Assembly: GCF_023856365.1 (NCBI RefSeq)
Contig: NW_026042399.1
Span: 248,001-312,000, forward strand
Source of the DNA: Brienomyrus brachyistius
Lineage: Eukaryota; Chordata; Actinopteri; Osteoglossiformes; Mormyridae
Direction of reading: 5' to 3'
Length of the DNA stretch: 64,000 nt
A program made the position numbers and the translations under genes. How positions within the stretch are numbered: the stretch's first letter is position 1; every line of letters begins with the position of its first letter. This document shows positions 28,671 to 34,530 of this stretch, one piece after another. The notes beneath the pieces were generated by a model that was not told the DNA's origin, did not search any database, and saw only the letters and a list, made by a program, of their open reading frames with translations.

Positions 28671-28797
28671 GTGGGACCCGTACTCTCCTGTACCAGTGGC
28701 AAAAAGAAGACCTCTGTAGGAACTAAACACAGGCTCATGGGAGCATTTCTTGCACAAAAGTGTTTTGAAAACGGAATAATTTTTTGTGTAAGAAAAA

Positions 28798-30520
28798 CAA
28801 TCTGATTGGTTCAGATAGACGACGGACGATCTGATTGGTTCAGATAGGCGACGGACAATCTGATTGGTTCAGATAGGCGACGGACAATCTGATTGGTTCA
28901 GATAGGCGACGGACAATCTGATTGGTTCAGATAGGCGACGGACAATCTGATTGGTTCAGATAGGCGACGGACAATCTGATTGGTTCAGATAGGCGACGGA
29001 CAATCTGATTGGTTCAGATAGGCGACGGACAATCTGATTGGCTCAGATAGGCGACGGACAATCTGATTGGCTCAGATAGGCGACGGACAATCTGATTGGC
29101 TCAGATAGGCGACGGACAATCTGATTGGCTCAGATAGGCGACGGACAATCTGATTGGCTCAGATAGGCGACGGACAATCTGATTGGCTCAGATAGGCGAC
29201 GGACAATCTGATTGGCTCAGATAGGCGACGGACAATCTGATTGGCTCAGATAGGCGACGGACAATCTGATTGGCTCAGATAGGCGACGGACAATCTGATT
29301 GGCTCAGATAGGCGACGGACAATCTGATTGGCTCAGATAGGCGACGGACAATCTGATTGGCTCAGATAGGCGACGGACAATCTGATTGGCTCAGATAGGC
29401 GACGGACAATCTGATTGGCTCAGATAGGCGACGGACAATCTGATTGGCTCAGATAGGCGACGGACAATCTGATTGGCTCAGATAGGCGACGGACAAGCTG
29501 ATTGGCTCAGATAGGCGACGGACAAGCTGATTGGCTCAGATAGGCGACGGACAAGCTGATTGGCTCAGATAGGCGACGGACAATCTGATTGGCTCAGATA
29601 GGCGACGGACAATCTGATTGGCTCAGATAGGCGACGGACAATCTGATTGGCTCAGATAGGCGACGGACAATCTGATTGGCTCAGATAGGCGACGGACAAT
29701 CTGATTGGCTCAGATAGGCGACGGACAATCTGATTGGCTCAGATAGGCGACGGACAATCTGATTGGCTCAGATAGGCGACGGACAATCTGATTGGCTCAG
29801 ATAGGCGACGGACAATCTGATTGGCTCAGATAGGCGACGGACAATCTGATTGGCTCAGATAGGCGACGGACAATCTGATTGGCTCAGATAGGCGACGGAC
29901 AATCTGATTGGCTCAGATAGGCGACGGACAATCTGATTGGCTCAGATAGGCGACGGACAATCTGATTGGCTCAGATAGGCGACGGACAATCTGATTGGCT
30001 CAGATAGGCGACGGACAATCTGATTGGCTCAGATAGGCGACGGACAATCTGATTGGCTCAGATAGGCGACGGACAATCTGATTGGCTCAGATAGGCGACG
30101 GACAATCTGATTGGCTCAGATAGGCGACGGACAATCTGATTGGCTCAGATAGGCGACGGACAATCTGATTGGCTCAGATAGGCGACGGACAATCTGATTG
30201 GCTCAGATAGGCGACGGACAATCTGATTGGCTCAGATAGGCGACGGACAATCTGATTGGCTCAGATAGGCGACGGACAATCTGATTGGCTCAGATAGGCG
30301 ACGGACAATCTGATTGGCTCAGATAGGCGACGGACAATCTGATTGGCTCAGATAGGCGACGGACAATCTGATTGGCTCAGATAGGCGACGGACAAGCTGA
30401 TTGGCTCAGATAGGCGACGGACAAGCTGATTGGCTCAGATAGGCGACGGACAAGCTGATTGGCTCAGATAGGCGACGGACAATCTGATTGGCTCAGATAG
30501 GCGACGGACAATCTGATTGG
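28798..30520 (+). repeat. 29-bp tandem array, left arm (about 59 copies)
   Basis: The unit reads CAATCTGATTGGCTCAGATA then GGCGACGGA. The first copies have GGTTCAGAT, later ones GGCTCAGAT. Blocks of three CAAGCTG variants start at about 29492 and 30391, 899 bp or exactly 31 units apart, showing a higher-order duplication. There are very few other changes, so the array is young or homogenised. Confidence 0.97.
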
Positions 30521-33268: not shown

Positions 33269-33289
33269 TTTTTGTGTTTGTGAAAACGG

Positions 33290-34530
33290 GTCTTTAATCG
33301 GGGAAACGGAGCGGGTAGAGCAGGACGGAACGCAGGCATTGACAAACTACAATGACGGACAGGGCAAACAGGTAAGACCAGGACTTAAAATAGGTCATGA
33401 CTAATCAAAGTAATCGGGCAAAGCAGGAGACGATCAGGGAAGCACACGTGGGTAATCAGGGGGCGTGGCACACACGAGGAGCGGACAAGCCGGGCATATA
33501 TGTATATCTATATAAAACCTCATTAATGAGGGACAGGGAACAGAACGGACAGACAGAACTGGCACAGGGGAAGGAGCCAGGACAAGACTTGACATAAGAC
33601 AGGAAAGGCAGAGAAACAGATCAGAAAGGGGGACACGGAGGGAACAGGCAGGACAAAAGGACCGGGAGTGAACGAAGGGAACATCGGGGAAAGAGGAGCA
33701 GAAGCCAGAGGGACGAGGGACAAAGAGAGGAGGGACAGAGACAGGAGGAACAAAGCGAGGGGGAGCAGAGGCAGGAGGGACAAAGACGGGAGGCCAGGGA
33801 GAGAAGGAGGGGGAACCAAGAGGAGCCCGAGGGAGACCCAGCGGGCGACGGGAGGCAGCCGGAAGGGCTGCAGGCGGCCGGGAGGCCGGAGCCGGAGGGG
33901 CCGAGGAGATGGGGTGAGGGACAGACGCAGGGACGAAGGAGGGAGTCGGAGGGGAGACCAGGGAAGGGGACGAAGGAGCTGGAAGGGACCCTGGCGAGGG
34001 CAAGGAGAGAGGGGGAGCCGCAGCAGACGGCGACGTCCTCCGACACGCCAGAGCGGGAGGACCAGCAGGCGAATGAGGAGCCGCCGTCGGGGGGCCCGCA
34101 GGCAACCGATAAGACGCCGGAGGAGGGACCGAGGCAGGGCGACGAGGCCGCGGAGGGGGACCCGCAGACGACAGCCGACCCGGAGGGCCAGGACCCGCAG
34201 GCGCCGACCAAGCCCTAGCGCCGGCGAGGGAGGGCGAGCCAGGGGGCTGGGCGGGTGGGACCCCAGCCGTGCGTCTGTGTCCTCTCCCCTTATGGGACAC
34301 AGACATAAGGACCCGTGGCCGGGGTCGGGCTCGTCGGGGTGAGGGTACCAGAGTCACAGGGGGAGAAGGGACTGGAGTGGGGCCAGGGACTGGAGCTGCA
34401 GGCTGCAGAGGGGGCGCCTGCCCGGGAGCTGCAGGCAGGGAAAGCGCCTCGGACGTGGGCGCGGTAGCTGCAGGCAGCGGAGACGGCTGCTCGGGCTCTG
34501 GGGCCGCAGGGGGCACTTATTTTATTATAT
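33290..34530 (-). repeat. Proline-rich coding repeat, copy 1
   Basis: A 360-residue open frame (33434-34516, - strand) is made almost wholly of Pro, Ala, Ser and Gly, with runs such as PPAAPEPEQP and a C terminus ending VCATPPDYPRVLP. The same C terminus ends the shorter open frame at 53807-54127, so this is a dispersed repeat family. Downstream (- strand) an ATTAAA lies near 33293, as in a transcript end. GC-rich codon bias keeps several frames open, so coding is uncertain. It may be the 3' region of an LTR retrotransposon. No catalytic domain is visible. Confidence 0.5.

Follow-up and report, generated by a model that had tools for sequence, protein, structure and literature searches.

The Foldback and Galileo elements of Drosophila are mobile families with defined ends, and their long inverted arms are made of, or contain, tandem repeats. 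Both are named in PMC4079207, which in its passages on Tetris, from the Drosophila virilis group, describes an element in which a MITE (DAIBAM), inverted arms with tandem repeats, and satellite arrays come together; on the account given there, tandem-repeat foldback arms are already described in Drosophila. A MITE-to-satellite route is already described in Xenopus, according to the passages of PMC12628747 on Xstir, a vertebrate MITE whose tandem repeats may derive from internal sequence, and on the MITE satellite miDNA4, for which the capture of a pre-existing tandem repeat was proposed, as well as the lengthening of internal arrays via short direct-repeat microhomologies. A passage of the same source concerns the zebrafish MITE Angel, single strands of which are able to pair within themselves. 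In the open-licence literature, no paper was found that pairs 'foldback element' with 'teleost', nor, among papers matching foldback and tandem repeats in zebrafish, any title with a fish foldback element, nor any paper on MITE satellite DNA in inverted orientation in teleosts.

This study analysed a window of 64 kb (the whole stretch of DNA under consideration), in which a block of about 4.5 kb beside a splicing-factor gene consists of some 154 copies of a 29-bp unit, roughly two-fifths of them running one way and three-fifths the other. TRF delimits a left array at 28797-30520 (29 bp x 59.4, 99% matches) and a right array at 30509-33268 (29 bp x 95.1, 99% matches), the latter being the reverse complement of the former. 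The two overlap at 30509-30520, which is also where the first-pass annotation had about 59 units running one way meet about 95 running the other; its coordinates were right. The left arm (+ strand) holds 59 full units, which read CTGATTGG on that strand, and the right arm (- strand) holds 94, with one consensus being matched exactly by 45/59 and 72/94 of them, respectively. The window contains 156 occurrences of the core 17-mer CTGATTGGYTCAGATAG with up to two mismatches, where 0.03 are expected. The block is a long homogeneous tandem array and, in the manner of foldback transposons, has long inverted arms built of tandem repeats. It resembles Foldback and Galileo in these arms but, on present evidence, not in the mobility and defined ends of those families. 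As Tetris and DAIBAM are presented in the passages on them (PMC4079207), the likeness lies in inverted arms with tandem repeats, ends shared with a MITE, satellite-like growth, and a repeat that has a stretch in common with the terminal domain; the Tetris repeat, however, measures ~220 bp and the present unit 29 bp, and Tetris has a middle domain, whereas the present array has no middle. The passages on Xstir and miDNA4 in PMC12628747 are without head-to-head arrays, in contrast to the head-to-head arrangement found here.

On its left side, the array is bordered by a diverged MITE arm (28733-28808, + strand), which runs from the terminal inverted repeat, GCTCATGGGAG, to CAATCTGATTG, the start of the array. 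The relatives of this border are two hairpin MITE copies at 11579-11828 and 15216-15441, which align with their own reverse complements at 76% and 77%, respectively, and with each other at 76%. Against their four arms, the 76-bp left flank has 51/76, 55/83, 56/78, and 57/83 identical columns, with 0/500 shuffles as good in each comparison, and the aligned stretch begins in the terminal repeat, covers almost the full MITE arm, and reaches CAATCTGATTG, where the array takes over. The scores of 25.5-32 exceed the background maximum of 20 (0/4678 stretches at 25 or above), the background being window stretches other than those touching the MITEs or the array. The link between the left flank and the arms of the MITEs at 11579 and 15216, proposed in the first-pass annotation, is therefore stronger than claimed. 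A MITE remnant adjoins the array at the left flank only. A description of this flank as a mini-MITE, i.e., a left end plus a right end (28776-28798 resembles 15414-15436, 91% of 23 bp), was replaced by the collinear arm; the shorter match still holds, and the two descriptions overlap. Angel, a small inverted-repeat fish element, is comparable with these MITEs in description, as far as the passage on it goes (PMC12628747).

The unit itself, GATTGGTTCAGATAG-GCGACGGA-CAATCT, matches a MITE sub-arm, GATTGGTTCAGATAG-ATAAC-CAATCA, beyond which lies a second GATTG (the letters are those of the left arm of copy 2, with one base set to the commoner A). Between unit and sub-arm, 24, 25, 26, and 25 of 35 columns are identical in the four MITE arms, and a dimer of the unit, aligned to both strands of both MITEs, scored 30, 29, and 28 (0/1000 shuffled units each) and 25 (1/1000). 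The motif CTGATTGGTTCAGATAG, earlier taken as part of the MITE arm, is present in neither MITE in its exact form but is found there at three places with two mismatches each. The unit is best read as a MITE sub-arm bounded by GATTG repeats, in which ATAAC was replaced by GCGACGGA; the sub-arm measures 26 bp in the MITEs and 29 bp in the array. The shuffle tests support the unit similarity expected of a MITE-derived satellite, and descent from MITE to array is the direction that we infer. The GATTG pair lies 26 bp apart in the MITE arm and may represent a ready slippage pair, comparable with the microhomologies in the passage on miDNA4 (PMC12628747). Because alternative alignments of the unit to the MITE arm exist, the slippage points are not fixed.

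The arms meet head-to-head at 30500-30529 (GGCGACGGAC-AATCTGATTG-GTCCGTCGCC), and sequence inspection places this junction within one unit, at the near-palindrome CAATC(T/A)GATTG. The centre between the arms is unit sequence alone, and MITE interior was absent from the junction sequence inspected. Compared with a clean fold at CAATC-T-GATTG, one G is added at the junction. As this motif differs little from its reverse complement, a strand switch there would reverse the direction of the array, with a single G added. The GCGACGGA stretch occurs in each arm, whereas reading the two MITEs did not show it in either. The same unit-specific changes, this stretch among them, mark both arms, which makes a single array with its inverted copy more probable than two separately grown arms. 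The 317 nt around the junction fold as a single long hairpin (-292 kcal/mol vs. a shuffled mean of -100; 0/100 shuffles as low), although such a low folding energy is expected of any inverted repeat. Transcription of the region as a U2AF2 intron would, by prediction, yield an RNA hairpin of ~1.7 kb.

Unit variants are unevenly distributed along the arms. Position 9 of the unit is T in the alignment of the four MITE arms. In the left arm, T is found at this position in the 8 outermost units and C in the remaining 51/59; the right arm has C in 81/94 full units and T in 13/94, none of which lies farther than ~1 kb from the junction; the partial unit at its outer end also has T. The T9, G27, and G25 variants of the right arm sit in the third nearest the junction, and its outer 61 full units are uniform. 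The left array edge keeps the MITE-like T9 form and the right arm is mixed; since the inner right T9 units are not explained by an edge effect, the idea that an older form persists at the edge applies to the left arm only. Two triplets of G29 units in the left arm have starts 899 bp apart, corresponding to 31 units, and this spacing is a sign of block duplication.

We lean towards the reading that the array is a MITE-arm-derived satellite, which grew from a MITE sub-arm and was inverted at its own near-palindrome. It looks like a satellite that grew out of a transposon arm, not like an established new mobile element, and is treated here as a passive, non-mobile satellite. In the order of events inferred here, a palindromic MITE copy would have sat ~60 bp beyond the last U2AF2 exon found, and slippage in replication, or unequal exchange, between two GATTG repeats would have duplicated the intervening sub-arm. 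This sub-arm, going from 26 bp to 29 bp once ATAAC became GCGACGGA, would then have expanded as a tandem array, a strand switch or inversion at CAATC-T-GATTG could have given the head-to-head arms, and later unequal exchange and conversion may have homogenised each arm. The MITE copies have diverged and the arrays are 99% uniform, which suggests that the array is younger or constantly homogenised. The proposed history leaves the right border and the edge direct block (see below) unexplained, and from a single locus, growth in place is not distinguishable from the arrival of a ready-made array. It was suggested at first that a MITE had evolved the foldback architecture by arm expansion. Of that suggestion, two parts are supported, namely, the similarity of the unit and the left border to a palindromic MITE arm, which goes far beyond chance, and the long inverted array; an expansion of both arms with the architecture kept is not supported, as the centre has no MITE interior, the unit-specific changes are common to the arms, and a MITE end on the right is lacking or too weak to claim. 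What this array contributes beyond the systems described before is its short unit, an origin that is readable, and arms that turn head-to-head at the palindrome of the unit itself. For the step from transposon to satellite, the parent's relatives, the border MITE arm, the edge units, and the inverted array all lie within 22 kb, so that the likely order of events is readable from the sequence, and a unit that holds its own near-palindrome suggests a way of making head-to-head satellites.

An alternative considered unlikely is a true foldback transposon with the architecture of Foldback, Galileo, or Tetris, in which MITE ends and tandem-repeat inverted arms moved together and the right end was lost to a later insertion. 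Such an element would agree with the nearly whole MITE arm at the left border. The right border of the array is a block of uncertain origin (33266-33287, + strand), which is a direct repeat of a left block (28778-28798, + strand, AATTTTTTGTGT...AAAAC) and also matches the MITE terminal repeat weakly, in inverted orientation. This inverted match, of 22 columns, speaks for a transposon end in that no shuffle was as good for one arm of four (m2R, 0/500) and only 13/9024 background 26-mers scored as high; yet the right flank was equalled by 230, 76, and 27 of 500 shuffles for the other three arms (m1L, m1R, and m2L, respectively), its best 80-bp score was reached by 319/4676 background stretches, and under stricter scoring 722/1000 shuffles did as well against MITE 1 (no better than chance) and 40/1000 against MITE 2 (weak). 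The inverted terminal match is strong on the left and weak on the right, where only 22-26 bp are in question, and alignments and background scoring found no MITE arm on the right side of the array comparable to the left one. A later insertion would be in line with the right neighbour, which from ~33290 resembles another repeat, partly similar to 53720-54099 (33346-33476 is 80% identical over 132 columns to 53720-53849). The centre without MITE interior argues against a foldback transposon, as do the single locus seen here and its want of a recognisable target-site duplication; the passages on Tetris report three complete copies plus rearranged ones, with duplications of 8-10 bp (PMC4079207). 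The left and right edge blocks align directly with a score of 13 over 22 columns, equalled by 9/8380 background 26-mers (5/2843 when AT-matched), and with longer stretches the match was as good in 49/8372 (40-base) and 318/8349 (80-base) background stretches; this direct match is thereby on a par with the inverted one. As a target-site duplication this direct block was rejected, because its left copy sits inside the MITE arm. When exact repeats of 9-12 bases were sought between 28674-28801 and 33267-37000, the right end being undefined, only one lay outside the left end, namely, a 9-mer (28713 and 36632) that is 11 bases short of the left end and not placed like a duplication. A further, plausible candidate for the right flank was a minus-strand retroelement with its A-rich 3' end here (ATTAAA, later six A); it was rejected since the similar copy at 53720 omits that end.

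Near-identical inverted arrays are hard to assemble, and an error of orientation in reading or joining one array, or a misjoin of two loci inside the array, may have produced the block; we regard such an artefact as improbable too. Exon matches to U2AF2, a vertebrate-type splicing factor, extend from ~19958 to 28673 on the + strand, and the last exon found in the window (28431-28673, + strand), which encodes the first part of the C-terminal UHM domain, ends 59 bp before the left border; by itself, it gave no Pfam match at E 0.01. A query for the final exon (the end of the UHM domain, ~43 residues) had no match in 28674-64000, so that the array lies either within a final intron longer than 35 kb or where the gene is broken or misjoined. 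A misjoin would account both for the absence of this exon from the 35 kb on the right and for the missing right MITE border. A hairpin artefact, however, should mirror the variants. Counted outward from the junction, variants occur in 14/59 left units and in 22/59 facing right units, and across the junction 23/59 facing pairs are identical, all of them consensus, while 0/59 share a variant at the same distance. G29 is found in six units of the left arm only and G25 in two units of the right arm only, and G27 is present in both arms (1 left unit, 9 right units). The unmirrored variants make a simple foldback read unlikely; the argument is directed at a hairpin read and does not touch a misjoin of two arrays.

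Returning to the MITE-arm-derived satellite, its units carry RRCCAATCAG, which we take to be the NF-Y binding consensus. The array holds 154 copies of this motif, one for every full unit plus one at the junction; the 59.5 kb outside it hold 5, of which 4 are in the two MITEs and one is at 25822. There is a slim chance that a vertebrate foldback family exists, in which a palindromic MITE turns a CCAAT-bearing sub-arm into kilobase inverted arrays, this locus being one of many, and in which the RRCCAATCAG units would multiply sites for a host factor and make intronic hairpins. If copies exist elsewhere, a Tetris-like architecture would extend to vertebrates. Exact-pattern scans gave 0 matches for the unit in viral and prokaryote collections, which says little for an animal genome, and 0 matches for the MITE sub-arm and terminal repeat in the viral collection, which says equally little.

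Several other features were observed in the window. A tRNA-family match (59.4 bits) lies at 19327-19398, ~560 bp before the first U2AF2 exon match. Adjoining the array, a proline-rich open frame of 360 aa is found on the minus strand at 33437-34516, with DNA partly similar at 53720-54099; Pfam at E 0.01 gave nothing in this frame, nor in the frame at 40167-40916. A reverse transcriptase fragment (RVT_1, E 1.7e-12) is located on the minus strand at 52145-53038, and 34574-34754 and 34820-35005 form a direct duplication of 87%. TRF also reported a tandem 90-bp repeat at 63377-63559 (2.0 copies, 100% matches) and a second satellite at 42902-43977 (46 bp, 23.4 copies, 88% matches), the unit of which is, by eye, unlike the 29-bp unit.
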